This document shows, in pieces, positions 1 through 64,000 of a stretch of DNA of 64,000 nt. The stretch is from Tribonema minus (lineage: Eukaryota; Sar; Xanthophyceae; Tribonematales; Tribonemataceae): positions 1 to 64,000 of the forward strand of contig JAFCMP010000516.1 of NCBI GenBank assembly GCA_017506865.1. The letters are read 5' to 3'. The notes beneath the pieces are model-generated. The model saw nothing but the letters and a program-made list of their open reading frames with translations, was not told the origin of the DNA and ran no database searches. The first letter of the stretch is position 1, and each line of letters begins with the position of its first letter. The position numbers were made by a program, and so were the translations under genes.

Positions 1-3000
1 GAGCTCCGCGTGCACGGCTGCCTCGTCGTCGCCGAGGCGGTCAAGGCCGAAGATGGTCGCCAGCACGTCCGCCATGCCGCCGTACGGGACGACGGACGCG
101 TGCGGCGAGGCGCTGCTGCTGTAGCACCGCGACCTGTGGGGTGAGGGTCACCAGGAGCAGGTAAGTACTGTACACGAGCTTCGCCTGCTTAGCAAGGGTC
201 ACTAGGGGTAGATGACTATTGCAATGAGGTTTGTCGTACGGGATGACGGAGGCATGCGGCGAGGCGCAACTGCTGTAGCACCGCGACCTGTGGGGTGAGG
301 GTCACCGGGGGTAGGTAAGTATTGGGATGAGCTTTGCCGCAGGGGACGTCGGAGGCATGCGGCCAGGCGTTGCTGCTGTAGCACCGCAACCTGTGGGGTG
401 AGGGTCAACAGGGGTGGGTAAGTATTGTACTTCAAAGTATTGGGCTTTACCACACAGGATGACGGAGGCGTGCGGCGAGGCGCTGCTGCTGTAGCATTGC
501 GACCTGTGGGGTCACGGTCGTGTGGGCAGGTGAGTATTGTAACGAGCTGCAACTGCACGCGAGGCATGCAGCGAGGCACTGCTACTGCAGCACCGTGACC
601 TGCAGGTGCGGGGTCATCAAGTGCATCGTGGCCAATTCCTTGAGCTCAGCTTGTGATGACCAGGGCCGTTGTGAGGCGTGGGGGGGGCGTGGGGCCATAC
701 ATACATACATGCACACCCCCCCCCCTCCCATTTGATAGCTACACATACATAGACAGGTACCATTTGTAAACTCCCCCCCCCCTTTGTCAACTATGCGTAC
801 AAAGGCAGGTACCTGAAGTAGGCGCAAGCGGCGCGCTTGATGCGCTCCACGACGAGCGTCTTGCCGGTGCCCTGCTGGCCGCTGATGGCGACGACGCGCG
901 CGCGCGGGGGGCGCCGCCGCGCGACGCCGCCTCGCCCAGGCCGCTCAGCATGTCGTGCACCTCGTTGAGGAGCTCCGTTCGGCCGACGACCTGCCGGGGG
1001 GGTGGGGGGGGGGGGGGGGTATGTAGGTATGGGGCAGGTGCATGGTGGTGAGGTACACTGTTGTGGCACTGTGTGTGGTTTGCGCTGCTTCCATGTGCTT
1101 GCAGCACCGAGAACAAGCGCTGATCCTAGTGATGTGGACTGCCTGAGCCACTCAGCATGGCGTGCACCTCGCTCAGGAGCTCCCGGGGGCCAATGACCTG
1201 CCACAGGCGGTGGGGTATGTAGGTATGGGGCAGGTTCGTGGAGGTGAGGTGCAATGTCGTGGCACGTTGTGTGTGTGGTGTGCACTATTTTCATGTTGCT
1301 GCAATCATGTACTTGCAGTACAGCTCAGCTGTCATGCGCCTCGTTGAGGAGCACGCATACGTGGCCATAAATGGTCCTGACATTACGGGTTTGCCTGCAA
1401 TGTGGGATAGGGCGCGCTTCATGGACGAGCTCCGGGCGGCCGACGAGATGCCGCAGGGGGTATGGATAGGTGCTCAATAGTGCAGTACGCTGTCGCGACA
1501 CTCTGATGTATGCGCGGTGCCGAAAACGAAATGACCCCCTGATCCTAATGATGCTGATGGCCGTGATGGCTCAGCGCGGTGTGCTCTGCGTCAAAAAGCT
1601 CCAGCCAACTGCCTGCTGAACAGAACGGCGTCATCGACTAGCACTTACAATGCGAGTGAGGGCCGTAGCTGTTCTGTGTCCTGTCCCTGTGACCGCCAGT
1701 AGCTTAGGATTAGGGTTAGGGTTAGGGTTAGGGTTAAGATCAGTCACCGCGGCGTCTTCGACATCTGGGTGCCTGAAGGCACACCCACGTGCGTACTCAC
1801 CGCCAATGGAGCCCGCAGCGGCGGGCGCCGCGGCGGAACCGTGAAGACGCATTGCAGAAACTTCGGAGTATGCTACCTACCAACAAATCTGTGCCTGAGT
1901 AACATAGGGACATATATGCCAGCATGATCGCGTATTGTGTCAGTAAAATGGTGAAGACACCAGCATGCGTGTTGGCCTGTAAATAGCTGTTCCAAATGCT
2001 TTCAAACTGAACCTGCAGCTGCCGGCTCGTCTGCCACATTTGGTCACTGTCCTCTGTCGGACACACCCATTGCCACGCGTGTATACCTCGAAGTATGTAT
2101 TGTGTGAACTACATCAACTTCAACAAACACTTGAAGGTCTGTTGCGGCACGCAAGGGCCGGCCTGTCACCGCCGTGAAGCAATAGTTACATACCTGTAAC
2201 TGCCTGCTCTTGTGCCACATCTGGTCGCCATCCTCCGCCAGGCACACCCACGGCGAGATGGGCACGGACTTGCCCTTGAGCGCCATCGGGCTCAGCTGGC
2301 GGAAGTACGCGGCCTCCTGGCCGTCGCGGCCCACCTGAGCCGCAGATGCAGATGTAGAGTGATGAGCAACACGATCACCATGAAAACTGCATACTGGGTA
2401 CGCATTTCGGTGAGTAAAGAAGTACTGATTGCTGCTTGAAGGGCGTTGGAAGTGCGATGCCCCCTCGTATGGCGCAATGGCCGTCGCGGCCCACCTGAGC
2501 GACCCCCCGATGGAACGTGGTGGTGATCAACACAATGGCCGGGAGGCTGTGGACTGGATATGCATTGAGGATGTATAGAAGTACATGGTTGATCCTACTG
2601 AGAAAATACGCCGCAGCCTGACCGTGGCACCCATGCGAGCAACAGCTGTGATGTAGTGATGAGCAGCATATGTGTACTCATATAGCATCGAGGTATTTTT
2701 TATATATATCACAAGGAGGGCTGTAAAGTAGGCATGCGTTAGCCATGTTTGAAGTAGAATTGACCCTGGAGCTACCACGCTCACAAGTCCAGGAAAAAAA
2801 GTGTCACTTCCAAACATTTCAGAATCCTCTTCGCACAACTGGTCCAGCACAGGCTCTGAAAGAACGTGAATATTGAGAGAACACACGCACAAGCCTACGG
2901 CTGGTCACGCACTTCCCTTAGGCTTATTATTAGGGTAGGGGTTAGGGCTAGGGTTGTGGCACACCTGCGCACTGATGGCAGGGCCAGCGAGAGACATGCT

Positions 3001-6000
3001 GTCAAGCATCACAACAGCAGCATGCCCTGCAGATATGCTCCACATCGCATAGCAGCAGACCTTCAGTTGGTACGCCCCACCACATATGCCTAACTATGTC
3101 CACCCCTGACTATTGCGCCGTTTGATGTACACCGGCTCGGCACCTGTTGTGTTTTGTGTCGCATAGAAGGTACTTTGAAGTATGTAGTGCGCTTATTTCA
3201 CAACGACCAAGTGATCGTGCTTTGAACATTTTCACAGGTGATTTGGTAAACCCAAAATTTGAGCCTGGCACAAGAGTACATGGCTCTGCTGATAACAAAA
3301 TAGGTACTGCGCTGCTGGCTTACTGATTATGATTCTTTAACCTCACAATCGAGGCTTGCAGACTTTGTGCGTCTTGTGGTGTAGGTGGCATCTTTGCACA
3401 GAATGCAACACTCGGCCTTGCTCGTGCAGCGCACGGCGAGTTCGGCTACGCCAGCGACATCGTACTCACTTCCTAAACCCTACAATTAAGCAACTGCTCA
3501 TCGTAAACGCGCTTACCTTGGTGTACGTGGCGTCGTCGCATAGGATGCGGCCCTTGGCCTTGCTCGTGAAGCGCGCGGCCAGGTTGACACGACGGCGCAC
3601 TCGCTTCCTAAACCCTACAATTAAGCTCAGTCTCCTCAAAAACACAAGCGTACCTTGGTGTAGGTGGCGTCATCGCACAGGATGCGGCCCTTGGCCTTGC
3701 TCATGAAGCGCGCGGCCAGGTTGATGACGTCGCCCACTACGGCGTACTCGCTGCGCAGCTTGCCGCCCACGCGACCGCACAGCGCGCGCCCCGTCGTCAC
3801 CTGCATGCGCACGCGATGCACGGAGCATCAGCGACGGCGTGCACGGAGTCAGTCCACATGCTTTTGACGGCTGTTGCAGGGCTGGTGCACAAATGCACCA
3901 TGAACAAGTTCACCTGACAATCAGCAACAGGGTCAGCACAGCGCGCGCCCCGTCGTCAACTGCGGTCGCGCCCAGTGCGCGCAGCATCAGCGGCGGCGCG
4001 CAAAGAGTCAGCAGAGTCAGTCCAGACACTTTTCTCATGCATCACGGCAACACAGACAACATTGCATGAGGATTAGCAGCGGCGTCACGAGAAGTAGGGT
4101 TAGGGTTAGGGTTAGGGGGCCAGCTGTCGCCTGCGTTTGCACTCACGCACAGCGGCGCCATTGGCGCTGCCCCTAACCTGAAGGGGCGCTGGCTGGGGCC
4201 ATGCGCACACAGGGCACCTGCATCTAAAGCGTAATCCTAATCCTAACTGTAACTTTAACCCTTACCCTGACCCAAACTCTAGCCTAAGCCTCCATTTTGA
4301 CCCCAAATGTAATACTGCCACTAATGGGCGCAAGCATCCGGGCCAAACGGCGGCGTAGATTGAGACAGGCCACTGTCAAGTGACGGGCTTTCGTGTCACT
4401 GCCAGGTATGATGTGACGCGAATCAACACACTCCACCGGCGGACCTATTTTGAGAATTGATGTACACGAGGCAGGAAAAACAATGTGTGCCCAACTGTGA
4501 CCGCCCATCTGCGCATGCACGCATCTTACCCTAGCACTAGGGTTAAGGTTGCGTACATACGTACCCCGAGGCTGGTCTTCATGCGCTGCGCGCCCAGCTG
4601 CTTGTGCAGCTCCACGGCGGCGGCCATGGCGCGCGCGCAGTTATCGGAGTGACTGCCACGCAGCAGCGGCAGCAGCAGCAGCAGCAGCAGCGGCAGCAGC
4701 GGCAGCAGCGGCAGCAGCGGCAGCAGCAGCAGCAGCAGCAGCAGTAGCAGCAGCACGATACACAGGCGGTCGGGATTAGGGTTTGCATCAGAGATAGGGT
4801 GAGACTCTCGTTGTTGTAGGCCATTGAGAGTCACTGCTTCAGTGGTGGCGTTCGGGTTGGGTCCAGGGGCCAAGATAGGGTTAGGGGACTGGTGTTAAAA
4901 AAAGTAGAGTACCTAAGGGTCACGGCATGCAGGTGCAGCGGAACCAGTAATGCTGTGCAGGTGCAGGGCGGATGCAACTTCAACAGTAACATCCTGGAGC
5001 CTCACTTTCTGCCGGGCGCAACCCAGCAGGCAATGAGGACGCAGACCTTGTCATTGACATGGAATTGCCACAAGAACCCATGCTTCTTCCGTTTCAGTAG
5101 CACAAATCCGACAGGCAATGAGGACGCAGTCATTGTCATTGACAGGAAACTGCCGCAAGCACCCATTATTCTTTTCCAGAAGCACAGCCTTCAACAGCAT
5201 AGAAATTCCAACAGCATAGAAAGCGCACTTCCTGCCGGGGACGGCCCTGCACGCAATGAGGACGCAGCCCTTGTCGTCGACCAGGAACTGATGAAAAATC
5301 CAAGCTCTTTTGTTTCAGAAGCACAAACTTAAACATGTTACTTCAACATAAAGCTCACTTTCTGCCGGGGACGCCCCAGCACGCAATGAGGACGCAGCCC
5401 TTGTCGTCGACCAGGAACTGTCGCAGGAACCCCTCCTTCTCGGATAGGATGCCCTGCGCCGTCGCAAGGAAGCCCTGCAGGCTCAGCAGATCCCTGCGCG
5501 ACAGGAGAGGCGTCAGCGCTCGGCAGGTGTGTTCCGCAGCAGCTCACAGTGACGCGACGCTGCAGTTGAGCGTTGCACTGGCGGCGGCCACGTACATTGT
5601 ATACTTCCGCATGAGGGGCGAAAACTCTATTTCGCACCACGACATGTATAACGCGTACTACAGTGTGCTCCTATTGTGTTTGTGCAAGCGTTCTCCGCTG
5701 GGATCTCTCCAGCATACACGACCACCCACGACGCTATCTACAGATGGGACCAGTGCAAGGCTGTTCGTGCATATGATTGGGTCAGGGCTGGAGTTGAGGG
5801 GCTTGGGGCGCATCGGCTGAGCCGCAGCGACATATCATGAATCCTCACGACAACCTCCAGTCACTTGAAGTTGGGGAATCACACTCCACATGGTTGAAGT
5901 CACAAGGGGCTGCGGCGTCAGAATTCAACAACAGCTACGCCCGCCCCCCCCCCTCGCCTCCCCCATGCACACACTTCAACTTTGTGCGCGTTGAAGTACC

Positions 6001-9000
6001 TGTGCTCCTGCGCGTCGTACGAGTCTAGCTTCATGAAGACCGTCGTCACCGTGCGCAGCTCCGCCATGTAGTCGAAGATGCCGCTGCACACGAGCTCCGT
6101 CACCGGCAGCGGCACGAACCCCTTCATCATGGGGACCAGGCCGGGGGGAACGGCGGCGCGCAGCAGTTTTGCGCCCCCCCCCCCTCCCCCCCCCCCGCCC
6201 CCTGGAGCGGGGGATGGTGGAGCGCTGCTGCCTGACATGGACCCCCCGCTGCCGCCGTTGAGGAAGGAGAGGTCCATGTTGCCGCCCCAAGACACGCGCT
6301 CGATGTGCTGCGGTGGTTGCTGCGCGTGACGAGAGACAGATGTGCATTTTATATGATGCGCCGCCCGTGAGTGGCGTCCACCGTCGTGAATCAGCAACGA
6401 GAGAGAGAGAGATATATATATTCATGTGAGGCGCGGCGCCCGTGAGAAGGCGCTCGGCCGCGTTCACGATCGTGAATGAAACCATGAATGAAGGTGCGGT
6501 CGGCGTGCGTTCAGCGTCCGCTGGGCGGTTGCGCAGACGCGGCAAGCGATGGCGCGCATGCAGCGTCTCGGCATCAGTTGCGAGGGCGATGGCACGGGGG
6601 TCAGGGGTTAGGGTTAGGGTTGAGGATGGGCTGCAGACCCCGGCTGCATGTCGCGCGATCTGCCCGCTGCTTTCGCTTCCCGTTAGGAGTGTCGTCAGAG
6701 GCAGTGCATGATCGGGAAGCCAGAATACTGACCGCCGCAGGATTAGGGTTCGGGTTAGGCACGCAACCCCTCCCCGGGAGCTGTCGGCGCGCGCAGCGTC
6801 CGGACGCGCTGTGTTGAGCACTGATACACATCAAACATGGCACAGCGCGCGCAGCGTCCGGACAGCGAGTGCGATGCACCATGCTGGGCATTGACACACC
6901 TCAAAATTTGGTATTGCTGAGCTGATGTGTTGGAATCATCTGTATGTGAGATGGAGGCAAAGCATCGACAGGACCAGAACAGCATTTGTCTCGCGGCAAC
7001 GCCGCCAGTGCTGCTGCTACATTACATGCTTGCATGTGTTCCTGGCCACTTTGAGATTACCTCATCCGCACACTATGAATACTATGCTCTGACGATAACA
7101 CAAGTCACAGTTGATGCTCAAGATTGCGTAGTCACCGACGGTCTCGGGTATCCTTGACGATTGCTTGTGACAGGGAAATGCCAACCCTCCCTGCTGCAAC
7201 ACAGCATTTGAACACACTGGTCTGCCAACAACAGGCTGAAAGGTGTCAAGTGTCAATAAAATCACCTCAGCCACTGCTTTGACGGTTTCAAGCAGAAGGT
7301 TCCCGGATGGCAGGAAGGTTCCGTGCACGTCCACGCCGAGCAGTTTGAACGTCTCCACACTCAGCACGACCTGCACAACAAAAGCACAACTAAGATGATT
7401 TTAGAAACCAGTTTGACACGGTTTCCGCGCACCGCATGCACTTCGCTGTTCTCTAACCCTAATTGCGACCCTAGTCCTGACTCCAAGGCTTGAACAGTGA
7501 TGCCAGCAACGTTGAGCATGATATAGCCTGTGTCACCATATTCCATTGCAGTTCGCCTGCGGCACGTATACCATGACTGATTATTCGCCCAGCATGCGAG
7601 CGTATCGCATGATGTGGCGTGCATGACACATTTACGAATTCCCATGAATTTCACGTTCATTATTTTTTTCAAATGCTACATGTATGAATTCTCTTGATGT
7701 GCTGGCTGGTGTGTCCGGGCTTAACAAGGGTAGTGGCGAGCAGTATTGGGTGGCAGTATGCATACATGTGGCCCTCGCTGCGACGCCATTGTACTCAAGC
7801 CCATCTTGTCTGCAATCACTTGTACTGTACGGGAGCCTTGTCGGGTATGAATCTTATTGACTGCGCGCGCGGGTTGGCACGACTGAACGTGTGCGGCCTC
7901 AATGCCATTGACGCGTCCGCAAATGTAGTCGCATGCACGTGTCGCATATGCCCACATCCGGTTGTAGAGGATGTAGGTATGTGATCTCATCATACGTACG
8001 TACATACCTCGTAGGGATGTGACCTAGTTGTTGCTTTTTGTGTTGGCCCCCATTCAAGGCTCTGCTGCAGCTGCGTGCCGTGTGTTATTGGCATCCTGTG
8101 CCCACCAACAAGTGATGGTTCTACGCTGCTGCTTCCCCTAGTCTCTCCGCATGAACTTAACAATATATTCGATACGCCTGTTCCCCATGTAGCCGCATTA
8201 TACTTTGAAGTACCTACATGCCCCCTACCAAATCGCAGCCATGTGCCCGCATGACACATGCCCGTAGGCATATCTGTACATGTGCTGATTGCGTGCAGAT
8301 CACCTCAGGAGAAGTATGAAATTCTAGCCCTCACTCTAGCCCTAATGCTAGCCCTAACCGTAATTATGACACTAAGCGGCCACTGCGGGCCTGCTCAACA
8401 CACACATGCGCTATGCTGCCGCCACATGCAGCAGCGCATCAACCTCGTTGTACTCAAGGCCTATCTTGTCCAGAATCACTTTGTCGGGTATGAGCGTGAA
8501 TGACTGCACGGGCCTGACTGAACGCGTGCGGCCTCATTGCCCATGCCAGAGGTTCAACCCGCAAACATGCCGCTAATAGGACCCTTTGCCGCCCCTTTGA
8601 GCTCCTCCCCTCCTCGCCATCAGGCGCAACTGAGTCTCCGCCAACATACCACTTGCACTCTGCCACGTGCTCTGACTACAACCGTGAACTCAGCCATAAT
8701 GGCTGCCACAATTGACAATTGCAACTTGAAGTAGTGAAGACATGAGACCGCGCGCGCCTGCCCTCGCTGCGCCTGCTCCAGCGCCGCCAGCGCAGCATAC
8801 CATTTCTGGAACAGTAAAGCGTGCCCATGCTGCGGCCAAGCGCCTACTTGGTGACTCATTGCAAACCTACCCCTAACCCTAGCCTCAACCCCAAAGTGCG
8901 CGAAAGAAAAAGAAAGTGTGTGACGACATACATACCTGCCCCTGCTGCGCCTCCTCCAGCGCCGCCAGCGCCGCACACCAAAGGTACAGCAGCGTGTTTC

Positions 9001-11164
9001 ACTGCTGCCGCCATGGGCCTACTCGGTGACTTGTTCCAACACTAACCCTAACACAAACCCTTAACCCCACGCCTAAACCCAGAGTGCGCGAGAAGGGAAT
9101 GACATTCACGAGGGCATATGTACCTGCCCCCGCTGCGCCTCCTCCAGCGCCGCCAGCCCTGCACACCATTTCTCCAATGTGCAAGCATTTCCATGCTGCC
9201 GCCAAAGACTTACTCGGTGACTCGTCCTAGTGTGTCAGGAAAATAATTGAAATCAGTAAGGGCGCGTACGTACCTGCCCCCGCTGCGCCTCCTCCAGCGC
9301 CGCCGCCACCAGCGCGATCGTCTCCCCGCTGATGAGGCACTCCCAGTAGTCCTCCACGCCGCCCAGCACGCCAAAGCACAGCTCGCCGCACGATATGCCC
9401 ACGTGCAGCGACAGCCCGTCCGACGCGACTGCGCGCAGCAGCATCTGCGTTCCACACGTCGCCAGCGCCGCGCAGAGATCGAGGAGTGAGACAGGGGTAG
9501 GTATAAAGTGCAGGACAAAACGTGTGAGGCGGCAGCGCACGGCGGCAGGCGTCTGGCGTAAGGGGATTCGAGCGAATGAAACTGAGGTAGATATGTATCG
9601 TGGGACGAGGCGACGCGAGCGTGAGGCGGCAGCGCACGGTAGCGGGCATCTGCGCGTTGGCGGCGCGGATGCCACGCGGCAGCGGCGCCTGTCCACCGCG
9701 GCGGCGGCTCCGGCGCGGCGCGCGTGCTGCTGCAGCACCGCAACATGAGCTAGCGGGCGGCGGCGCGCTCTCCGCCGCCGCCGCCGCCGCTGCCGCCGCG
9801 GCAGCAGCACCTGCTCCTCATGCGGCCCCCGTGTGCGTGTCACTTGTGATGGGTATGGGGTATCGTAGCGGCCCCAGCAATACGACTCAGAATCAGAGTC
9901 AGAGTCAGGCGCAGGAACGTGCCGCCTCCTTCAGGGTAGGACACGTTCCGCGGCCATTGCCACCGCCGCCGCCACCGCCGCCTCCGCCGCCGCTGCCGCA
10001 CCGCCTGAGAGCCTGTACACAGCTGCAGAGCGAGCTGCGGGCACGCGGCGAGCGTGTGGATGCCCGGTCGCATTGTGCCGAGGATAGACAGCTGGAGCGC
10101 GGGTGTTCGGTGACGCTACTGTGGTTGAGTGCTGCTGCACCGCGTGCGGGCCCACGTGCGCGCCTCTGACTAGAGTCTGCAACAGCCTGAATACACGCGA
10201 CAAGGGCTGCGGCAGCACCCACTGTCATGGACACCTGCTTGTTGAGCACTGTGACAAATAGCACTATCAGGGCGCGGTGCGGATGCCGAGACGTCACGCC
10301 AACACGGTGCGCAGAGCCAAATAAGCGTCGCCCCGAAGGCGCAGGCCGCACCTGCAGCGACAGCAATACAGAGTCAAACGCAACCCTATCATCACATGAC
10401 AAACGCGTCTGCTCTATCGCTGCCTTTACCAGTGCCACAACCCTCGTGTTGCTACGTCCAGTTACAGCACTCACTGAGGCCCTATCACTGCCTGTAACCC
10501 TCATATTGCTGCTGTCACACACACTCACTGAGCACTGAGACGCCCTCAGCGCCGCCGGCCGCAGGTCCTTGGGCGACTCCGTCTTGAGCGGGAGGAACGT
10601 GCAGTACAGCGCGTCGCCCGCGATCTTGATGATGTCCCCGCCCGCCGCGTAGATCGCGTTCACGAGCTGCGTGTAGTACGAGTTGATGATGGTGACGAGC
10701 GCGTCGAGGCCCTGCGCGCCCTGCTTGGCGTGCCGCTCCGACAGCGCCGTGAAGCCGGAGATGTCGGCGCAGACGCACACGCCGCGCAGGTAGCGCGACT
10801 CCGGGGACAGGGGCGGGCTCCGCCCCATGAGGTAGTCCAGCAGCAGATCGGGCACGAAGGCGCTCATCATGGTGTTCTTGACGATGGTGGACGCCCTCCT
10901 CTCGACCCTGAAGAGAGCGCTGGTGGAGGACCGCCTCTCATTCCTGAACGCCGCTGCGGCTGCTGCAGGCGACGGTCTCCTAGTCGGCGTCTCAGCACAG
11001 TTCACTGCGCCCTTGCCCGCTGATTCACTGATTGCTGGCAGCTGCAGAGGCTCCGTGCCCTGTTGGTGCATTGATCCAGCAGCGTCGCCATGTTCCTGCT
11101 TCCAATCGGAGGAGCCTGGTGACAGGCAAGAAGGCCTGCCGCTCTCCACTTGCGCCAGCGGCAT
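1..11164 (-). CDS. Soluble-type (ADCY10-like) adenylyl cyclase, 3' end beyond the window
   Basis: Makes cAMP from ATP; animal soluble cyclases respond to bicarbonate and calcium, which is family knowledge only. Exons in coding order: 10529-11164, 9274-9444, 7266-7370, 6000-6319 (or to 6307), 5359-5493, 4565-4652, 3654-3800, 2194-2334, 813-990, 1-118. C1 domain: 'ADISGFTALSE' (metal Asp about residue 134), 'GGDIIKIAGDALY' (Asp 184), then 'LHVGISCGELCFGVLGG'. C2 domain: 'AELRTVTTVFMKLDSYD', 'VDDKGCVLIACWGVPG', and 'VVGDVINLAARF' with the Asn/Arg pair. The last two exons start the NTPase region: 'VVGRTELLNEVHDML', P-loop 'GQQGTGKT', then 'YGGMADVLATIFGLD'. Phases close at all junctions except a 1-nt break inside 813-990. 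The start is the ATG at 11164; the first 120 residues are low complexity, so upstream coding exons are possible. A Gly-rich linker of about 10 residues lies at 6168-6200. Confidence 0.9.
119..600 (-). repeat. Four degenerate copies of a cyclase acceptor and exon start
   Basis: The acceptor at 119 ('ctgtagcac' on the plus strand) and the adjoining exon start recur at about 273, 376, 489 and 585. Each copy keeps the GCGGCGAGG-like exon start and the following GTGGGGTGAGGG-like intron tract. Spacing is 154, 103, 113 and 96 bp. Only 1-118 gives an open exon in the right phase. Confidence 0.8.
1130..1460 (-). repeat. Two degenerate copies of the cyclase P-loop exon start
   Basis: On the minus strand, 1197 down to about 1140 reads 'VIGPRELLSEVHAMLSG', and 1450 downward reads 'LVGRPELVHEA'. 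Both copy the true exon start at 990, 'VVGRTELLNEVHDMLSG'. The copies end before the P-loop and sit 207 and 460 bp upstream of the true acceptor. Confidence 0.8.
1985..2510 (-). repeat. Ghost copies at both ends of cyclase exon 2194-2334
   Basis: About 2010-2055 copies the exon 3' end and donor ('DQMWQTSRQLQ' against the true 'DQMWHKSRQLQ'). Positions 2477-2503 copy the exon 5' end and acceptor ('ggccgtcgcggcccacctga'). The flanking intron otherwise shows nothing recognisable. Confidence 0.75.
3370..4030 (-). repeat. Ghost copies on both sides of cyclase exon 3654-3800
   Basis: Two copies of the exon 3' half lie downstream in the intron, starting near 3518 ('SKAKGRILCDDATYTK'-like, close match) and near 3372 (strongly decayed). 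Both are followed by a shared 'cttcctaaaccctacaatta' tract. A copy of the 5' end and acceptor lies at about 3934-4030. Period is about 140 bp. Confidence 0.8.
4658..4760. repeat. CAG/CTG trinucleotide microsatellite abutting an acceptor
   Basis: About 100 bp of (CAG/CGG)n on the plus strand, read as (CTG)n in the minus-strand cyclase transcript. It ends 6 nt before the acceptor of exon 4565-4652, so it occupies the usual branch-point and polypyrimidine region. The poly-Ala, poly-Leu and poly-Cys frames through it are not coding. Confidence 0.85.
5005..5310 (-). repeat. Three decayed copies of cyclase exon 5359-5493 end
   Basis: The exon string 'gcaatgaggacgcag' (true copy at 5383) recurs at 5253, 5115 and 5030. 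The copies at 5229 and 5005 keep the tttctgccgggg-like exon end. Only the 5229 and 5005 copies retain a donor-like AC. The copy nearest the true exon matches best. Confidence 0.8.
6320..7265. other. Cyclase intron with paired duplications and TTAGGG-type tracts
   Basis: No exon seen. It holds an AG/TA dinucleotide run (6400-6420), two 'cgtgaatcagcaacg'-type repeats near 6380 and 6470, TTAGGG-type tracts at 6605-6625 and 6740-6757, and a duplicated 'gcgcgcagcgtccggac' block at about 6788 and 6848. Confidence 0.6.
7371..8757. other. Cyclase intron with a 660-bp-spaced duplication
   Basis: No exon recognised. A block of about 100 bp at 7790-7905 ('atcttgtctgcaatcac', 'gtgcggcctca') recurs at about 8449-8545. 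Degenerate CCCTAA-type tracts lie at 8320-8365. The start of the intron contains one 'ctctaaccctaa' tract. Confidence 0.6.
8758..9205 (-). repeat. Three copies of cyclase exon 9274-9444 end with telomere-like spacers
   Basis: The exon end 'ALEEAQRGQ' and its donor are repeated at 8758 ('ALEQAQRGQ', donor lost), 8936 ('ALEEAQQGQ', donor kept) and 9124 ('ALEEAQRGQ', donor kept). Spacing from the true site at 9274 is 150, 188 and 178 bp. The three copies share an upstream 'W(C/Y)A(A/G)LAALE' frame that the true exon lacks. CCCTAA-type tracts separate the units. Confidence 0.8.
9445..10528. other. Cyclase intron 1: duplicated acceptor and donor regions
   Basis: A 'gtgaggcggcagcgcac' block occurs at about 9524 and 9621, each followed by a copy of the region near the 9444 acceptor. 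A copy of the donor region ('cactcactgag') lies near 10470. GCC/GGC-rich tracts at 9765-9800 and 9960-10000 make long spurious Ala, Pro or Arg frames. Confidence 0.6.
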
Positions 11165-15900: not shown

Positions 15901-16875
15901 CCTGCTACAGTAGCATGGCGCTGCGTATGCGGTTGCCGCTTTCAGGAGATGAGCGCTGTACAACTTCACACCCTGCCTGGCACTGAGCTGTAGGCAGTCC
16001 CACTGCAACAACAAGGGATCATGGAATCGAGGTCGGCGATCAAACTGGGCGACGGCAAATAGAACGCCTCTGCTGTATCTTAGGCCTCCAGGCGCTTCCG
16101 TCCTCACGATGTCATCCGCACAGAAGGAGTGCGCCTGGTTCTGCTGAAGCAAACCAATACCATATTCTCATGCTAACAGATCTGATGTAGGCTCGTGGCA
16201 CCGAGTAAGACACCACAACAAGAACGCCACGCGAACCGGCGAACACAACGAAGAGTAACATTTGATAAAGGCACACACGTACCGCACCACACCAGCAGAA
16301 TAGGGTAGAGCCCGCCTCCTTTAGATCCGCTCCCCGCCTGCATATCGCTGCTCACCGCCCTGTAGTTGAACGCTACGTACGCCAGAGACGCCGCGAACAC
16401 GCCCACAACGAAGTAGTTCAGCACCGACAAGACCTCCCACCGGGGAAGAGGCTCGGGCTTTCTCGGTTCTGCCCATGCCCCTGGCTGCTGCGCCTGCTGC
16501 TTGTGTTTGCTAGCCATGGCGCCCTCCTCTGAGCCGTTGAGAAACAGCTTGGTCAGAGTAAAGTAAACTAGCACTCCAGCGATCACGACTCCAATCGCCC
16601 CCAAATTGTCCAACACCAACAGGGCCGCGGGCGCCAGAACCTGTTGGATGGCGTGACGAGGGACGCTATCAGAAAGATGGAAGCCGAAAGCCAAGAAGTG
16701 ATACTGCAGAAGGTCAGCACAGAGTGGTGTGTGTGTACCAGCCGGAGCTTCGGCGGTTAAGCCATGATGGAGACACGCACGACGGAGAGCACGTTAGTTT
16801 GCCCATGCAAACGACAGCGGAGGTGCAAAGTGTAGGGCATGTACGGCATATTGAGGTGGTTCTCACCGTGTCCAT
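12952..16875 (-). CDS. HMGR: 3-hydroxy-3-methylglutaryl-CoA reductase
   Basis: Reduces HMG-CoA to mevalonate with NADPH, the committed step of the mevalonate pathway; ER membrane enzyme. Exons: 16867-16875, 16283-16640, 14065-15311, 13293-13514, 12952-13056; total 1,941 nt, 646 aa, all phases close. Residues about 4-122 hold a first membrane segment ('[18 protein letters not shown]') and part of a second that continues into '[14 protein letters not shown]'. A Ser/Arg/Ala-rich linker follows, then the catalytic domain: '[13 protein letters not shown]' (Glu), '[15 protein letters not shown]', '[11 protein letters not shown]' (Asp), '[14 protein letters not shown]' (Lys), 'DPAQNVEAS', '[12 protein letters not shown]', and C-terminal '[10 protein letters not shown]' with catalytic His 638. 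The tiny first exon (Met-Asp-Thr) is inferred from a good donor and matching phase; it is the least certain part. The usual inhibitory-kinase Ser after 'HNR' is Lys here. Confidence 0.96.
13942..14012 (-). repeat. Ghost copy of HMGR exon end and donor
   Basis: About 68 bp starting with 'ctcacctgccccgtcg' repeats 14060 onward at a distance of 118 bp, with roughly ten differences. It ends in a CCCTAA-type tract at 14014-14022. It keeps an intact donor and lies in intron 3 (13515-14064). The rest of that intron is unremarkable apart from a G-run at 13527-13567. Confidence 0.85.
15312..16282. other. HMGR intron 2
   Basis: A 971-bp intron. Its acceptor end (15312-15345) is almost pure C in the transcript. 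The 147-codon open frame on the minus strand (15709-16152) has no recognisable family and lies wholly inside the intron, so I do not call it a gene. Confidence 0.7.
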
Positions 16876-33463: not shown

Positions 33464-33570
33464 CATGCAGCTGAAGACGGTGTTGATTTGTGCGTGCGCT
33501 TTCGTCCTATTTGGGTACCTACCATGAAGCTGAAGACATTGTTGAACTTGTGTGAGACTTGGGCACCTAC
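33464..33570 (-). repeat. Two extra copies of the last hydrolase exon end, with donors
   Basis: The exon end at 33571 is repeated ending at 33523 and 33464, 48 and 59 bp further on. All three keep 'CATG' followed by an exact 'gtaggt' donor. The first extension is in frame and open (16 codons, repeating the 'HKFNNVFSFM' end). Confidence 0.85.
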
Positions 33571-48500: not shown

Positions 48501-51500
48501 CACGCTGTCAGGGCGGCATGCCATGCAGCAGCCTCGCGAGCTGAATTACATGCATTCTCATATGGCGCTCCAAAAGGTGCATGCCGCCACTTTTCGTTAT
48601 GATGCAGTATATTGACCACTGGACGTTCCAGGCATGCGCTGCGAGTCATGGGTCCCCGTGGCCAACACGCCTGAGAGTCCGCAGCTGTGTGACGTCCACC
48701 ATACGTTCGCATCCTCTTGAAGTGATGCGAGCGTTCGTACCACGCGCAGACCACTGCCGGAACACACAGCAGTACAACTACCACACGCGGATGTACTTCG
48801 GGAGAACAACGCTGCTAATTCAAGCCCGCACCCGGCAGCCCGTCCCCAGCACCAGATCCTCGTGCCGCATCCATTGACAAAAGTCAACAAACACACGACA
48901 ATTTCAAGATCCTCACTACCATACTTCTAGATCAGCATGCTGTCGACGCGCCCTTACCCGGCAGCTCGTTCCCACCACCTGACCCTGCGCCAGATCTACT
49001 GACAGAACACTCAATCAAAACACATCACAACTGCAAGATCACGCTCCCATACTTCTAGATCAGCACGCTGTTGACGCCCCCTTACCCAGCAGCTCGCCCC
49101 CACCACTGGATATTCGCGCCGCATCTATTGACAGAACACTCAACAAACACTACTACCTCAAGATCCACACTTGTAGTAACATACTTCAAGTTGAGCAGTA
49201 CGCTGTTGACGCGCGCCCTCACCCGGCAGCTTGCCCAGGCGCCGCACCCACTTGGGCAGCTTGAGCAGCATGCGCCGTGGCCACGACAGGTACTGCAGCG
49301 TGTCGGGGGAATCCGCGGCGCGCACGCCAAACCAGCGCCGCCCCAGCTTTTGGTTCTGAACGGCGTACGGGTAGACTGCACAGGGGGGCAGGGGGGACAC
49401 AGGAGGGGGGGGGGGAGGTTGAGCGATGCATATCAGTGGACGGACTGCAGTGTTTTTTTTTTGTTTTGAGTGGGCCGAAGCCCTGATACAACGAGCAGCA
49501 GTGGTGATTGGGTTTATCGTGATCGGTTGACGTGGGTCATGCTGTGACGGGCACATGATGACACCAGGCATGCACGATCATGATCTTACTCATGTTCTGC
49601 GTCCTGGACAGATGGAGGCAGCTAGTGGCTTGGGGTTTTCTCCGACGGCGGGAGCAGGCAGTGGCTTGGGTTTGCGCAATCCACAAGCAAGATTCAGAAC
49701 ATGAGAAAGAGTCGAGCTGCAGGGACCTGTGTACATCACAGTACTGTGAGCTTTGTGAGCGATTCACTTTCAGCAGTGGCTGATATGGTCATGGCACACC
49801 TCATACTTAAAAGCAAGTGTTGTACATCGATAGATGTGCAGAGAACAATTAAAGGGTGTTAGTGCCGCGGTTACATTTGTCGCTGATTAAGGTTACGGTT
49901 GGCCATGCACGCACATGGTCGACGTCTCAACTTCCGCATCACTGCATCATTGCGGGTGTACACACGATGGCGTACTTCCTGTGGTATAACGCTGCGGTCG
50001 CTGACCAGCGGCCATTCGGCAACATGCAACGTCCTCGCAATGCCTCACATACTCGTGACCGCTCGCATCAGCCGCATTGACGTGTTTCACACTTCAACTT
50101 AAAAAAGTGGAGTTGGCGTCATGCACGCCTACGCACACCATCACTGCCCGCTAAACGCACACCAGTTACCGCGACTTACAGTGTATCCTTGCGACGCTCG
50201 CCACTACCGACACCAGGCACATGACCGCGGCAGCGAGCAGCGCGTCGTTGCGGAACTCGGTGTCCGCGCCCTGTGTCCTGCCCCTCACAATCGCCGAGAG
50301 CTGCCCCGTCTTGCAGAAGATGGCAAACCACGCCAGGTAGAACCTGCGCGGCGACACGCAGAGTTGAAGTTGGGGACGGGAAGTCAAGTTGCATATGGCA
50401 TATGGCATAGAAGTACTTCAACTTGGTGCAATCGATGTGCACCTTGACTTCCCCTCCAGGCCAGCATCAGACGACACGGCAGTCAAGGTGGTCAGTCACG
50501 CAATGCGTACGTGAATGAATGTGCTAGCATCAGTCGGCATGTCGGACAGCGTGGTCAGTCGTGCATTACGTTTGTGGTCGAGAGTGGCAGCAGTTGCGTT
50601 GCTGCCAGCATCAGACGACATGGCAGTCAGGTGCGCGGTAGGCCATGCAATACTGTATGTATGTGATTGAGAGCGCGCCGGCATCAGACGACATGCGAGT
50701 CAGGGTGGTCAGTCATGCAATACGCAAGTAGGCGATTGCGAGTGGCAGCGGTTTGCTGCCAGCATCCAGCATCAGACGACAGGCCAGTCGGGGTGGTCAG
50801 TCATGCAATACATGATGTGGTTGAGAGTGGCAGCAACAGACGCGTTATGCACCGGACATCAGGTCCACGAGCGGGGCAGGTGTCTTCATAAGTTGAAGTC
50901 AAAGTTGAAGTCTGCAATGTCAGGCGTTTACTGTAGCTATTTTGTGAGTAGGCAGGAAGGAGTATGGAGGTGGGGCAGTGGGGGAAGCCCGAGCCACGTA
51001 CTCACAAGGTATGTAGGTAGGTACCCAGGACGGCTAGGGTAGGCCAGCCCAAGTTCAACCCTAAGTCAACCCTAATCAACCCTGCATCGGCGAGCGACGG
51101 TCATCACAGCCGGCGCTACCCTAGGGCACAGCACTGACGAGGCAAATAGACCGCAGCGTCAGCGGCGTCAGGACCATGACACTCCATTCACTACCCCCCA
51201 CACACTAACGACAACGCCATCTGCTTCTTTGCCTGCCGAACAGATCCTACGAGCGAGAGTGCTTCTTTCACCCCCCCTAGAACCACAGCACGGCAATGAC
51301 CCTTGTTCACCTAACTTCATCGCAAACGTGCCACCATTCTGAAGTATGAGAGCAGATTACCACAAGCCGCTTGCTGCCTTAGAGGGGGGGGGGGGGTCGG
51401 TACAGTACAGACGGTTACTCTTTTTGTTCTCAATGTCACTTGCTCTTCTCCACAGCTCGAGGCGCCTCATGAGTCAGCCTGCGGCATGGCTGCTCGCCTC

Positions 51501-53880: not shown

Positions 53881-54839
53881 GGTGCTTGATCAATTGATAT
53901 TTGCTGAACTCACGTAACTTCAATGTCCGTGTCGGCCTTTTTTTTTATGTTGCCGGAATTGCCGGAACTCAACCGATTTGCCCGCAACACAAACCAAAAT
54001 CCGGGCCGGCGACGGTGCCCTTGGGGGTGCCTGCTCTCCCCGGCTGGGGGGGCGTTCACCCTGGGTAAAAGTGGTTCTCTCACGTTGGTTTACGCCCATT
54101 GCGCCCTGCGAACCTCAAGAAACCATTGAACTACCGGCGCAGTTGAAAGCACCGCTCCCCATACACTGCGATTGCTGTTGTGTTGCAGGCAAGACTCGCC
54201 AATAAAATCTTGCCTACTCAAAATATCACCTGATTTCTATACAATGATACACTATGACTCTCCAGGAACACCACAATGTCATGATGCCAGGACATCACAG
54301 AATCTCATCACTGATGTCCCCGGGTGTCCACCTGTTATATCTTGTCCCGCCAGCAGGAGCAACACACCAACCAGCAGGCAGCACATCAGCGGCAGCAAGC
54401 AAAGATACCCATCAGCACATGCGGTGCTCCTTTTGATATGATGCAAGTATTTGGTCGCAGCAAACACTCGGCAATTGGTCGATAGCAGCTGCCTGTCTCC
54501 GTGGCAGAGGTGGACACTTTTGAGTCCTCCCTCCCCATGTATCTGAATGCGGCGCACTACTGCTGGCGCCTACATAGCCCATTTCAAACAATCACAAGAT
54601 GCTGGAACTGCTCGTCTAAATATTCTGCTTGGCCTGTGCCAGTGTCGGCTGATGCAATGTACGAGCGACAGCACTGCTGGTGCGCCACCTGTGATGCGTT
54701 GTATCTCTCAAAACCCTGCCGCGGCCTCTAGGTCTGCGGGGCACACTCGGCCTTGAACGACTCCAGCTTGATTTTCTGCTTGGCCTGTGCCAGTGTCGGC
54801 TGATGCAATCTACGAGCGACAGCACTGCTGGTGCGCCAC
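53881..54839. other. Boundary between the hydrolase and the Cys-rich gene
   Basis: If the hydrolase starts at 53880, this region holds its promoter and the last exon of the upstream gene. I could not identify that exon. It also contains the array at 54600-54830. If no terminal exon exists, the two genes are one. Confidence 0.5.
54600..54835 (-). repeat. Recent copies of the exon 54840-55079 end, one with a stop
   Basis: Sequence at 54636-54780 nearly repeats 54787-54930 (period about 151 bp), including the exon end and donor. In the copy the Trp codon of 'APQTWRPRQG' is a TAG (plus-strand 'cctctaggtc' near 54727). A further partial unit lies near 54600. Confidence 0.88.
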
Positions 54840-57800
54840 CTGTGATGCGTTGTATCTCTCAAAACCCTGCCGCGGCCTCCAGGTCTGCGGGGCACACTCG
54901 GCCTTGAACGACTCCAGCTTGATGGGGATGCCGCGCGGAGGGACTCCGAGGTGGCGGTCCCCCTGTGCATATTTGTACATCTGCGTCCCAGCCGCCCACT
55001 TCCGATGGATCACTTCCAGGGCGAAACCCTTGGATAATGGTCTGTTCGTGTGTTTGCCCTCGATGTTGACCAGCAGGTCCTGCAAGATCACAAAATGGAA
55101 CTGGAGTCAGACGCCGAGGATGATCCTCATTGATAATCCCAGGGCATGCAAGTTGCCAACATGGCGCATATGAACTGAGCATGTCACTGATGACATCCTG
55201 ATGATCATTACTCGCAGCGCATGAACATCTCCAGCACCAGCGTCGCGAGCCGTTGGCCATAGATCTAGCGACAGCAGAAGTAGATGCTCAAGTATCGGGC
55301 ACTGTGTGGTGCAGTATGGCCGTGATGCACCATTTGTAGCTTTGGCCAAGCAGGCATAGAAGCAGCAATCACAGTGAAAGCATGTAGTACACCCCTCGCC
55401 GGTGCGGCTAGACGCAGCAGCGTTGCATGTCCAACTCGCTGACTACGACAGAACGAGTATGACAAATCTGCGAGCAATGCACCCCAACACCATGAAGACA
55501 CGGATGTGTAAGCAATGATACGTAGCGTTCCAATACTCACCGCGAGCTGTGTCACGCCCATTTTTGCCAACGAGGGGCCCTGCTCCGCACCGTCCACCAC
55601 CTCCACACGGATGCCTTTCGCCCACTGCTTCACCTCCGCTGGACACTTGACACAATTGAGCCCTCCAGCTACAACAGCATGAAGAGAACAAAACAAGAGT
55701 GTTGATACAATGTTCAGAAGCGGCAGTCAGGCACCACCACCAAAAAGCTTGGTGTGTGCTTGCCTTTCCGACTGGTCACAGCGGCACCATGAGCTCGACA
55801 GGTTAGAGCGAGCAGCACAATCATGATCTGCTTTCAACAGCAATATTACTGCAAGTACCATCCGCCCCCACACAACTCATACACTGCCCCTGCCACCCAG
55901 TGCGCCATCCTTGTCATCACAATGAATCAAATGTACGGAAAGCGCCGGCGCGCCCATAGCGAACACTCCACAGATCACGCGCAGAGCACTGCTGTTGACC
56001 GCCGGCCCACAGCGGCGTCGGCATTGGTTGAAGTGATGCACAATGGAGGTCAAACCAGACTGAGTGACGTATCATGCGGCCGCCGAGAACTTGCAGCAGC
56101 GGCAGCTCGAAGTGTCCCACAGACGCAAACACCATATGTTCAACTTCAACTTCAAGTAGAGGGGGGCCGCTGCCGCCGCTGCTGCCAAATACGATGGCAA
56201 ACACCAGCAGTATGTGGACTAGCAACCGCCGGTGACAGAGATGCTTAGAGACACTCAAACTTTAACTTCAAATGCAACTGCTACATAAACGAGCGCAGTG
56301 GATGGCTCAGTGCTCAGCCACGTGCCGTAAAACTGTCAGCACTTTGCTGCGTGCACAAGCGTACCTTGTCAATTGCTCACGTGGCCAATTGATGATGTGA
56401 AACGGGCACTTCGACTTCAACACTGCAAATGCCTCAGGGTTCGGGTCATCCATGTGAGACGACAAACACAAACGACAACTTCAACGGCTATGCGAGATCG
56501 CGCGCGTGCCGGCAGTTGGCTCCTGTCAGCACTCCGCTGCGCGCTGCCACACAGCTGACAGGGTGAGGTGCTTACCATTCGCAGCGGCCTGCTTGTGGTG
56601 TTGATGCCCCAGGGCCCGGCACTTGCAGTCGCTGCCCGCGGAGGTGCAGTCGCAGCCTTTGGAAACGCATTTGTTGGCTGCGGCAAGGCCTGCGGCAGCA
56701 GATGCAGAACAGATGCACAGCCCATGGTCAGTATGGATCTTCAAGATGAGACCCCCTGAAGTCATGTAGGTGCGCGAGGGTGCGGCTTCAGCAGGGACGA
56801 TAAGCGCGGCGTGCAAAGTCTCAGCGCCCATCCACACAAGGTCCTGCAGCCCCTGGCTAAGACGTGAAAAGAGGCTTTGCAACCCTTCTGGCGTTGCTAC
56901 TGTCTGATGATGATTTCAACTTCAACAGCATGGCGGAGCTCAGACGAGCGACAGCGCCTCCACTGCTGCTGCCGCCGAACCGATCGTGAGAGGACACTCA
57001 AACCTCAACTTCAAATGAAACTGCTACATAAACGAGCGCGCAGTGGATGGCTGAGTGCTCAGCCAAGTGCCTGGCAACCTGTCACTTTGCTGTGTGCACA
57101 AGCGTACCCTGTCATATGCTGTCGTGGCCGGAATATGGAAGCGACTGTTGAGCGCTGCTGCACTGCCCTTAACCCTAGCCCCACGCCAACTACAACTTCT
57201 GAATCAGCTTATGGCTCACCATACCACACGTTCAATGTGCACTAGAGGCGCCCACCTTATGTATATGCTACTGATAGTGATATATAGATGCGCTGTTCAT
57301 GTAGCGCACCAGAGTTGAAACCCGGACAAAGAGATGCTTCGCGCGCACCGAGCGGATGGTCAAAGTTCATGGGTTGAAGTTCAACCTCAGTTACATGCAA
57401 CTTCAACATGAGCACTGCTCGCGCTGAGCCGTGATGCACCCCTTGCACGCGCGCTACCGCCGCCGCCGCCGCCGCCGCCCGCCGCTGCCAGATACAATGG
57501 CACACACCACTGGCAGCAGCAGCACCTGCAGCGTTGCAGCGGCACCATATCACCGCGTCCACATGTACCACGCATAAAACCTGCCTGCACAAGCCCCCAT
57601 TGCCACTTCACCTCTTGTTGATGCGATTCCAATTTCAATTGACCGTGACGTCAACTGCAACGCCAGGCAGTGATACAATGAAGCAAGCTGCGCACTCACC
57701 CTTCAGCACGGCGCCACCCTCAGTCAGGCGCCTCGCCACGCCTGCCTTCTTCTCCTGCACCGTGGCGAAGCTGTCGCGGCCGTCCGGCCCGGTCACGACG

Positions 57801-57958
57801 TACACGATGTCAACTGCAGCAACCACACAGGCGCCAGCGGGACGAGGTGTCAGTGTCATGCTGTGCCCTGTGAGCGCTGCTGCTGCTGCTGATATGCACG
57901 CGCGAAATACACGCCCAGCACAGTCACGTCTAGCTTCGACGCAAAGCACACTCACAGA

Positions 57959-57989
<31 letters not shown>

Positions 57990-60900
57990 ACAACAGTGAT
58001 ACAATGTGATACAATGAAGCAAGCTGCGCACTCACCCTTCAGCGCGGCGCCACCCTCAGTGAGGCGCCTCGCCTCGCCTGCCTTCTTCTCCTGCACCATG
58101 GCGGGGCGGTCGCGGCCGTCCGGCCCGGTCACGACGTACACGGTGTCAACTGCAGCAACAACACAGGCGCCAGCGGAACGGGGTGTCAATGTCATGCTGT
58201 GCCCTGTGAGCGCTGCTGCTGCCGCTGGTGTGCACGCGCGAAATACACGCCCAGCACAGTCACGTCTAGCTTCGACGCAAAGCACACTCACAGACTGCTG
58301 CTGCTGCTGCTGCTGCCAGAGCACACGCGCAGCCCCGACCACCGGCCGGGTGAATGAAGCCTGTTGGCGCTCAGGTGAGCGCGAAGCGTGTGGCGGAGAG
58401 AACCCTTAGGCTAGCCACATCCTCAACCCCACCGTCAGCACTGCGCGCCGTAGGCAAAAGCGCTAGCCACAACTTCAACCTGACCATTAGCACTGCACGC
58501 CGTGGGCTGTTGTCACGCACCTCGCTCTTTGCACGACGTCTTGCGGTCCCCGTTCTCCTTCGTCCCCGCCCCCGCCAAGACCAGGCCCGTCTTGGGGTCC
58601 AAGCCGGGCTTTGTGCTCTCTACGCCTGCATGGCGCCGATGCAACAACAGCACCATGGATGATCAGCACATAAAGTGTGAGGGGTTATGATGGACACCAC
58701 GTGTGTTGCAGGTGCAACCTCAAATGGACACATGCAGAACAGGAGCACAGCCCATGGTCAGTATAGAATTTGATGGTGACCCTCTGAAGTTATGTAGGTG
58801 CGCGAGCATGCCGCGTCAGCAGCGCCGACGGTGAGCGTGACGTGCAAGATCTCACCCCCCACCCACATGTGCATTAGGGTAAGGGTTAGGGGTACCTACT
58901 CCTAACCAGGGTTAACTAGCCCTAAACCTAACCCTAACCCTAGGCCAAGCACAACTTCACCTACGTCAATCAGGCATTTCAAACCTCAACGCACAACTTC
59001 AACTTCCATGGTCATGCGCCTCCGCAACCGTGCAGGGATGCAGGCGCAGGGACTGGCGCAGTGGATGGCAGCCAGCGCGCAGACATACAGGCTTACATTG
59101 GCAATAACCAACAGGGATGATTTAAAATTTCAGCTTCAGGTTGAAGTACATAAATTTCAAATTGGAACAATGGAACAGCAGTGGCGCGAAAGCGGCAGCG
59201 GCAGCGGCAGCGCACCGTGTCAGCGCCAGGAGCCGCGCGCGCTCCAGCAGCAGCAGCGGCGCGGCAGCCTGTCAACTGAGAGGTGACGCATCAGAGTTCG
59301 CAACCAGGAACGCAGTCAAGCGTACCTTGTCAACAGCATGCTGAAGCTCAGACGCATGGTGCTAGTTCAAATCAGATCGAGGTCATTGAATTCAAGCCCG
59401 CAGTTGCGCATTGATGAGCACTGGCCACTGAATCGCCATCATGTGCTAATATTTAAAAATGATGAGTCGCGGAATTAAGTGCTCATTCAGCGGCCCACGT
59501 CACGCATGCCACAGTGGCATCAGCATGACATGCAACAGCACGCCAGAGCGCTATGTGCACATTCGCCTGACATGGTAACGATCCGCCTAGCCGTCTCACC
59601 CAATGGCATCTCGCGCGCTGCCACACAGCTGACGACCTGACTTCAGTGAGTGCGCCTCATGTATATGCTACTGATAGTGATAGGTAGATGCACTGTTGAC
59701 GTGACGCACCAGAGGAGGAACACGGACAAAGAGATGCTTTGCACCTGCGCGCGCACACCGAGCGGATGGTTGAAGGTGATGGTTGAAGTTCAACCTTGAT
59801 TACACGCAACTTCAACATGAGAACCGCTTTCGTGAACAACGCCGTCGCCGCCGCTGCCAAACCTAATGGCGGCAGCGCGCGCGCACCAGCATCAGCAATC
59901 GGAGCGCGTGTTATGCTACCGAAGAGACTCACCCATCTCGCGCGCGGCCACACAGCTGCCGGTGCCGCGGCAGCTGCCCCTGTGCGCCGCATGCATCTCT
60001 TCCGCCTGGCTCAGGGTCACGCCGCTCTGCGCCAGCGCGAGCTGGACAGGGCAGTCCTCGCCCTCGCTGCACGTGCACCCGTGTCGCGCCATCGAGGCCT
60101 CGCCTGCACCAGAATCAGAGCGCAGCCGTCAACTACAACTGTAACTGCAATGTCGCAGGTCTGGCACCTGTCACACGCGCCACACGCAGCTGCGGCATCA
60201 GCGGCGGCAGCACAGGCGCCCTGCTGAGCATGCTTACATTGCACCTCGGCACGCACTGAGGCACGCGCACGCATGCACATGCAAGGACTGGGCCGACAGC
60301 GCCGCAGGCAGCGCAAATATCACGCAGCACTCTGTTTTTGCGGCAGCGACCAGGCGCTCCCGCGCCCGCCAGAACACATGCTGAACGACAGCAGTCTGCG
60401 GCGTCGCAAGGCGATGGCGCGCGCGCATACCGCCAACTTGACCTACAGACGAGGCTGCGCCCGGCATCGCATGCATGCTATCTCCAGCAGCGCTCAGACT
60501 TTGTCACCAACAACGCGTGCAAAACCAGTGCTGATGCCCCACCTCCACGCACAGCTGACTGCCGCTCGTCCGCCACCTCCTGCCGCAGCACGTCCAGGCG
60601 CGCTGCCTCCTCGTGCAAGCAGATGTACTCTGTGCTGCCCCCCAGCCCATCCTCCGCGAGTAAGTCCAGCACGCCGCACACGCCCTTCAGCTGCTGCTCG
60701 AGGTCCTCCACGCTCAGGTTAGTGCAGCGAGCCATGCGCGAAGCGAGCCCTGCACGACACAAAGACGGCACCGCATTAGGTCCAGCGCAGAAGGCAATAC
60801 GAGGCACACGAACGTCGCCCGTGCAATCGCCGCGCAACAGGTGCGGCGGGCCACGCGCAGCAGGTGGGGAGGTCGACAATGCATACGAACGCGGTGCGAT

Positions 60901-63830: not shown

Positions 63831-64000
63831 GATCAAAACTTTTACGGTGTGTTTCTGTCTTGACCCCCAGGCTCTTCTCAAACAACAATTCCAACAACGG
63901 CACAACACCAATGCCCGGCATACACTGAATGTACTACATGGCGATGAACAAATACAATGTGATTTGTTGTTGCAGCAGTAGTTTGCTGTGGGGATATGAG
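63831..64000. promoter_or_regulatory. Upstream region of the Cys-rich gene
   Basis: 170 bp upstream of the inferred ATG at 63830. It may hold the 5' UTR or promoter. The minus-strand frame stays open upstream to 63911 without an ATG. No core promoter motif is clear. Confidence 0.35.

Follow-up and report, generated by a model that had tools for sequence, protein, structure and literature searches.

Decayed tandem copies of exon edges and their splice sites in introns of Tribonema minus

Background

The predicted genes in the first 64,000 bases of contig JAFCMP010000516.1 of Tribonema minus (Xanthophyceae; assembly GCA_017506865.1, 158 Mb in 554 contigs), a stretch referred to below as the window, have many introns that repeat the ends of the exons bordering them, and this raises the questions of how such copies arise, which copy is spliced and why exon edges are so prominent among them. 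We use the term ghost for a decayed copy of an exon edge that lies, with its splice signal, inside the neighbouring intron. Introns seldom hold a datable record of their growth; here the age of a ghost can be read from its divergence, because the selected exon serves as a fixed reference. We propose that these structures are best explained by frequent tandem duplication of short segments (about 70-300 bp) in direct orientation, on which selection for the exons acts as a filter, and we regard this as probable.

Exon-edge copies in their own introns

The window, which is eukaryotic, contains genes for HMG-CoA reductase (HMGR), a PIG-M mannosyltransferase, a cyclase-type protein, a DUF900 hydrolase and BTB/BACK proteins. 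It was analysed together with 14, later 13, loci on other contigs (131 kb) and with a 50-kb stretch of contig C290 (200001-250000), in all 235 kb with the 13 loci. Exons were predicted with a custom gene finder, which took long open frames and typed splice-site seeds in the window, 13 loci and the 50 kb of C290 as the start of its self-training and converged on the donor (C/G)AG|GTGAG and the acceptor TGCAG|G. All exon models are predictions of this gene finder, firm only where homology supports them, and ghosts were repeatedly called as exons. The locus L003 (C1:20001-30000, GC 0.69) was excluded from the training and from all later analyses.

Among 157 modelled introns of 80 to 4,000 bp, a copy of the intron's own exon edge lies in sense orientation in 32 (window: 13 of 59) and in antisense orientation in none, while exon-edge queries matched only one intron among the 2,355 sampled from other genes. 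This comparison is the one that the original prediction, made from the letters of the window alone, had set for itself, and the claimed excess of exon-edge copies over chance is borne out. All 15 intervals cited there overlap local direct self-matches. In 12 of these 15 places, two of which (1130-1460 and 18598-18800) rest on weak gene models, a ghost was mapped for a predicted splice site; in the other three none was tabulated. These three are nevertheless genuine duplications: the gene finder reads 19640-19745 partly and 33464-33570 wholly as coding, and at 54600-54835 removal of the ghost exon leaves no downstream exon. A comparison of one ghost region with the whole genome found the region itself and a single other place, 74 bases long and 78% identical.

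We infer that these duplications lengthen introns. Introns with a ghost have a median length of 845.5 bp and those without 435 bp, a gap biased by detection because longer introns offer more room for matches.

The retained exon and the ghost splice sites

Homology indicates which copy is used in two genes. The HMGR exon ending in FLATGQ is followed 118 bp further by a 62-bp copy, 92% identical and with its own donor; the protein joined without this ghost can be aligned to 8ecg, its best solved relative, with no gap at the junction. Likewise, when the PIG-M protein is joined with its ghosts left out, its alignment to a solved glycosylphosphatidylinositol mannosyltransferase continues through the same point. 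In both places the intron must therefore remove the ghost.

In total, 113 ghost splice sites were tabulated beside 54 real ones, with more than one ghost at 29 of the 54 and up to seven per edge. The original prediction had described the copies as having lost their GT or AG; on the contrary, the dinucleotide is mostly intact (93/113; GT 55/68, AG 38/45), with a survival close to that expected at about 10% change per site. The ghost donor scores at least as high as the real donor in 35 of 68 cases, and at 105 of the 113 sites a transcript spliced at the ghost would be out of frame or gain a stop. Combined with RNA data, these 113 ghost and 54 real sites would constitute a natural test of exon identity, synthesis order and site strength in splice choice. 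In genomes of this kind, annotation needs safeguards against ghost exons.

Decay of the copies

The mismatch rate between exon and ghost is 0.110 for first, 0.096 for second and 0.180 for third codon positions (101 matches, partly non-independent); the intron/intron columns of the same matches give 0.209. In the 27 matches that span an edge, intron divergence is 1.70 times the exon-ghost divergence (95% interval 1.32-2.26), near the value of 1.5-2 that we reckon for one frozen copy. The gap-to-mismatch ratio of ghosts relative to introns, 0.65 (95% interval 0.27-1.15), is not clearly lower. Columns in which two ghosts share a base that the exon lacks are concentrated at third positions (103/889, against 45/1,876 first and second positions), and it is therefore the exon that changed there, mostly synonymously. 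The ghosts thus look like near-neutral relics beside one selected exon; that they are functional exons was rejected for most of them, by codon position, gaps and frame.

Extent and anatomy of the direct duplications

Local self-matches within 1 kb are almost all direct in the window (65 direct, 1 inverted) and in the 14 loci elsewhere (142 and 4). With the limit at 1.5 kb, the window, 13 loci and C290 together give 224 direct and 4 inverted matches, and 13 of 15 sequences contain at least one direct match. Local duplications account for some 20-22% of the intron sequence of the window and loci and for 2.8% of that of C290; for intergenic sequence the shares are 6%, 15% and 4% in the window, loci and C290, respectively, so that the process is uneven across samples.

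Within this material some places stand apart. The C290 stretch (L019-L023) has 23 kb of predicted coding sequence in 39 exons, unlike most other samples; L003 has long direct matches with periods of 111 and 165 bp (13 direct, 3 inverted); and L011:583-1213 is a 313-bp tandem duplication at 99.4%, the most similar pair listed among the other loci.

For counts of nearest pairs, matches shorter than 30 columns were removed, and so were pairs that a nearer copy bridges. The median period is 155.5 bp and the 5th to 95th percentiles span 72-543 bp, so that the spacing of 50-250 bp first claimed was too narrow. Copies are nearly contiguous in 37 of 120 pairs, and in 66 of 120 the spacer exceeds 30% of the period. 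Among the 29 pairs with such a large spacer and at least 85% identity, the spacer of 18 matches some other sequence no more than 600 bp away, a sign of arrays interrupted by insertions and deletions (indels); the remaining 11, including that of HMGR, are not accounted for in this way. Non-tandem copying was suggested by HMGR, whose intron parts do not match each other, and was rejected in view of the 18 spacers that match nearby. Five young near-exact tandem pairs have junction overlaps of 2, 0, -8, 5 and -3 bp. Around the copied edges, identity is at least 0.73 over about 30 bases on the exon side and drops to about 0.5 within 20 bases on the intron side.

Exon-free duplications are also found in intergenic DNA, and in-frame copies inside predicted exons. 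All eight matches with both copies mostly coding (three arrays) have a spacing divisible by three, an outcome that the gene finder, which requires open frames, tends to favour.

A proposed origin and its difficulties

The orientation, size and distribution of the copies in the sample, their near-neutral decay and the survival of ghost splice sites are direct observations. To account for them, we propose that short tandem duplications arise in introns, intergenic DNA and exons alike, nearly always in direct orientation, probably from staggered breaks or paired nicks that are filled in and then joined end to end. A duplication within an exon would persist only when in frame. One that straddles an exon edge would be tolerated, the exon-proximal splice site still yielding the old mRNA, and the additional exon piece with its donor or acceptor would become intron. 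Selection would then hold the retained exon while the ghost drifts, and because of this selection on the exon, exon-edge ghosts should remain recognisable for up to about twice the time that copies of intron on intron do. Repeated events would build ghost arrays, and once large indels have struck the intron parts, the exon edge may be all that can still be aligned.

This leads to the question of whether exon edges are targeted or merely more visible. From the random-placement test onward, predicted exons that duplicate a longer neighbour were removed; L014 and C290 were excluded from the forward-simulation shares, the ghosts per site, the coding-match and young-pair counts and part of the work on distance to exons and shorter introns. 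Under random placement, 18-24% of nearest pairs in the loci and window would fall over a splice site; the observed numbers are 27 of 74 in the loci and 19 of 40 in the window. A simulation of decay gave 27-39% exon-touching matches.

Several results weigh against the proposed origin. A uniform forward simulation with duplications, deletions and indels yields 35-37% exon-touching matches (27-42% across settings), against 61 of 114 observed. Exon-touching clusters number 44 of 65, against about 36% simulated; ghosts per site are 2.1 against 1.1; and pairs well alignable on both the exon and intron sides make up 0.16 against 0.35-0.49. Separated copies of high identity (22/30 observed) are rare, at 7-13%, in simulations with small indels only, and heavy-tailed indels lift this share to 41%. 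L014 and L015 gave no local direct match in self-comparison, and C290, with its low share of duplicated intron (2.8%), has 9 direct and 2 inverted matches over 50 kb, and none of its six nearest pairs lies over a splice site, where random placement expects 9%. Finally, ghosts differ from one another at third positions (0.239) more than at the others (0.161-0.173), and diverge by less than the double of the exon/ghost value that independent copies should reach. The latter suggests that ghosts were copied from ghosts, or some constraint. The third-position excess is raised by exon changes between the births of ghosts; third positions are 90% G or C, CpG sites mismatch more, and some ghosts may be under weak constraint.

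Under these models the exon-touching excess is genuine and partly unexplained. With starting introns 60% shorter, the simulated shares are 0.692 for exon-touching clusters, close to the 15/21 observed in the four homology-supported genes, and 0.416 for matches, still lower than the 19/32 observed; with starting introns 40% shorter they are 0.486 and 0.330. Growth of formerly shorter introns may thus explain part of the excess. The prominence of exon edges is also partly an effect of detection, because an exon/ghost pair decays once and an intron pair twice. Exon-free duplications occupy 16.7% of intron bases more than 400 bp from an exon, 7.6-8.8% at 50-400 bp and 3.1% nearer than 50 bp, although the way this last bin is constructed limits it. 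Since exon-free copies are not denser by exons, we did not adopt edge targeting, despite the excess share. Local tandem duplication that leaves decoy sites, as first supposed, is in agreement with the direct orientation, the neutral decay and the intact ghost sites; its specificity for exon edges is one part that did not stand.

Alternative explanations

Duplication could nevertheless be biased to exon edges if breaks or nicks tied to transcription or splicing recurred at exon borders and recopied the edge with its splice site. The surplus of exon-touching clusters, the doubled number of ghosts per site and the identity profile, high over some 30 exon bases and lost within 20 intron bases, are in favour of this bias. 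It is set back by the exon-free duplications, whose density is no higher near exons, and by the shorter starting introns, which bring the simulated clusters near the observed 15 of 21; moreover, the case depends on exon models from our own gene finder. We consider such a bias unlikely. The same low probability is given to its broader consequence, that exon borders attract duplication, splicing architecture feeding back on intron growth while the spliceosome ignores decoys by position and not by site strength. A selected function of the copies, as alternative or mutually exclusive exons or as alternative splice sites, is very improbable: although half of the ghost donors score as well as the real ones (35/68), ghost-ghost differences show the third-position excess and one equal-length whole-exon copy is modelled in frame at 95% (57700-57813 / 58036-58149), in 105 of the 113 cases the use of a ghost would disrupt the frame or introduce a stop, first- and second-position change in exon/ghost pairs fits a drifting copy, and relatives of HMGR and PIG-M carry a single copy. 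The duplication at 57670-58316 itself could be a genuine repeated or alternative exon.

Duplication of an exon segment bearing AGGT can also give rise to new introns (the Rogers model), in which case the start of the intron should resemble that of the downstream exon and its end the end of the upstream exon. The class of mutation is the same and exon sequence is present in some introns; however, the tabulated ghosts repeat the same edge with the same type of splice site inside a longer intron, more than once at 29 of 54 sites, and we give this origin very little credence. Even less credible is an assembly artefact or an introner-type transposition. A few pairs are at least 98% identical (54620-54923; L011), but the other listed local pairs of the window are 68-95% identical and an assembler cannot produce codon-dependent divergence; as for introners, the single match among 2,355 introns of other genes is unlike a dispersed element. 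Frequent tandem duplication filtered by selection on exons remains our preferred explanation.

Relation to known systems

In plants, patch-mediated break repair makes small tandem duplications by end joining. Small tandem duplications are also attributed, in PMC8355091, to CST-guided fill-in by Pol alpha-primase at 3' overhangs followed by end joining. Those described here are like such end-joining duplications in their direct orientation and short units, and perhaps in a small junction overlap, judged from the five young pairs; they differ in that the copies make up about 20% of the modelled intron sequence of the window and loci. The within-gene duplications cited in PMC4974935 can likewise span exon-intron boundaries; the main outcome here is introns with decayed edge copies and not new introns or longer proteins. 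The same source describes intron gain through tandem duplication in potato RdRp, alike in that an intron-exon structure is duplicated in tandem, unlike in that a new spliced intron was gained there and the copied edge is skipped here. According to the Exonize study (PMC12343006), partial, inter-boundary and intronic duplication events affect more genes than full-exon events, and exon sequence, degenerate exons included, recurs in its own introns as here; that work reports per exon on annotated genomes, and we describe arrays of up to seven ghosts per edge with splice sites. Introners, the subject of PMC9860276, share the origin of intron sequence by copying and insert in many genes, while exon-edge copies are found here in their own gene.

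Small tandem, internal gene and exon-to-intron duplications have thus been published, whereas the original prediction knew of no described intron-growth process of this signature. In searches of an open-licence library, no listed title or abstract dealt with decayed exon-edge arrays with splice sites as a main source of intron length in one genome. The kind of process is already known; its intensity and the intact decoy sites are unusual.

Features of the window

The mapped copies are listed in Table 1.

Table 1. Genes and local copies mapped in the window (positions on the 64,000-base stretch)
Feature	Coordinates	Strand	Details and support
Cyclase-type gene	1..11071	-	20 modelled exons including ghosts; gene finder; Pfam Guanylate_cyc 1.4e-10; AAA below curated cut-off
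Acceptor 133	79..602	-	ghosts 287, 390, 503; AG intact in all
Direct pair 940-1096 / 1147-1296	940..1296	-	74.5%; uncertain exon boundaries
Donor 3654; acceptor 3800	3377..4011	-	donor ghost 3517; acceptor ghost 3959
Donor 5359	5001..5440	-	ghosts 5229, 5006
Donor 9274	8757..9304	-	ghosts 9124, 8936; additional match 8757-8788
HMG-CoA reductase gene	12952..16875	-	homology and gene finder
HMGR donor 14065	13942..14121	-	ghost donor 13947; 62 bp, 92%, spacing 118
Tandem copies by modelled PIG-M start	18528..18920	+	70-76%; gene structure uncertain
Tandem duplication across likely PIG-M acceptor	19643..19826	+	92 bp; gene finder runs through part of first copy
PIG-M donor 19920	19891..20233	+	ghosts 20069, 20172
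PIG-M acceptor 21951	21399..21993	+	ghost 21731; pair 21399-21514 / 21760-21881
PIG-M donor 22184	22113..22515	+	ghosts 22319 (GT intact), 22453 (GT lost); PIG-M homology
Direct copies at DUF900 gene end	33455..33609	-	48-bp and 107-bp spacing; putative edge
Acceptor 33732	33704..33876	-	ghost 33842
Donor 36182	35813..36222	-	ghosts 35915 (identical 9-base site), 35827 (lost)
Acceptor 38417	38357..39202	-	six ghosts 38552, 38692, 38822, 38961, 39060, 39200; AG in five
Donor 47984	47550..48032	-	ghosts 47873, 47758, 47647; identical 9-base site in all
Donor 49223	48824..49236	-	ghosts 49086, 48958
Most similar tandem pair of the window	54620..54923	-	151-bp unit, 98%, 2-bp junction overlap
Tandem duplication of a whole predicted exon	57670..58316	-	336 bp; 114-bp exon and flanks, 95%, in frame

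Other repeats of the window have a different arrangement. The segments 60995-61142 and 61637-61784 are 95% copies lying 494 bases apart, with an unmatched spacer, unlike a simple tandem duplication. More distant repeats, 74-81% alike, are found at 57255-57419 / 59655-59828, at 56699-56836 / 58729-58867 and, inverted, at 21509-21713 / 48327-48516; they are possibly dispersed elements. The two BTB/BACK-type genes (28706-29215 and 30597-31107), which are in opposite orientation and 66.7% alike over 516 columns, probably result from an old inverted gene duplication. Short interstitial telomere-like arrays (TTAGGG / CCCTAA) occur within predicted gene spans at 1710-1733, 4100-4117, 6608-6619 and 37253-37270; CCCTAA is a motif reported for the haptophyte Phaeocystis globosa. 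A search for a photosystem reaction centre gave a single match under its cut-off. Among the other loci, L017 and L018 contain broken fragments of the rubisco large subunit, which look red-type and haptophyte-like, in keeping with the CCCTAA repeat, and which are probably insertions of plastid DNA.

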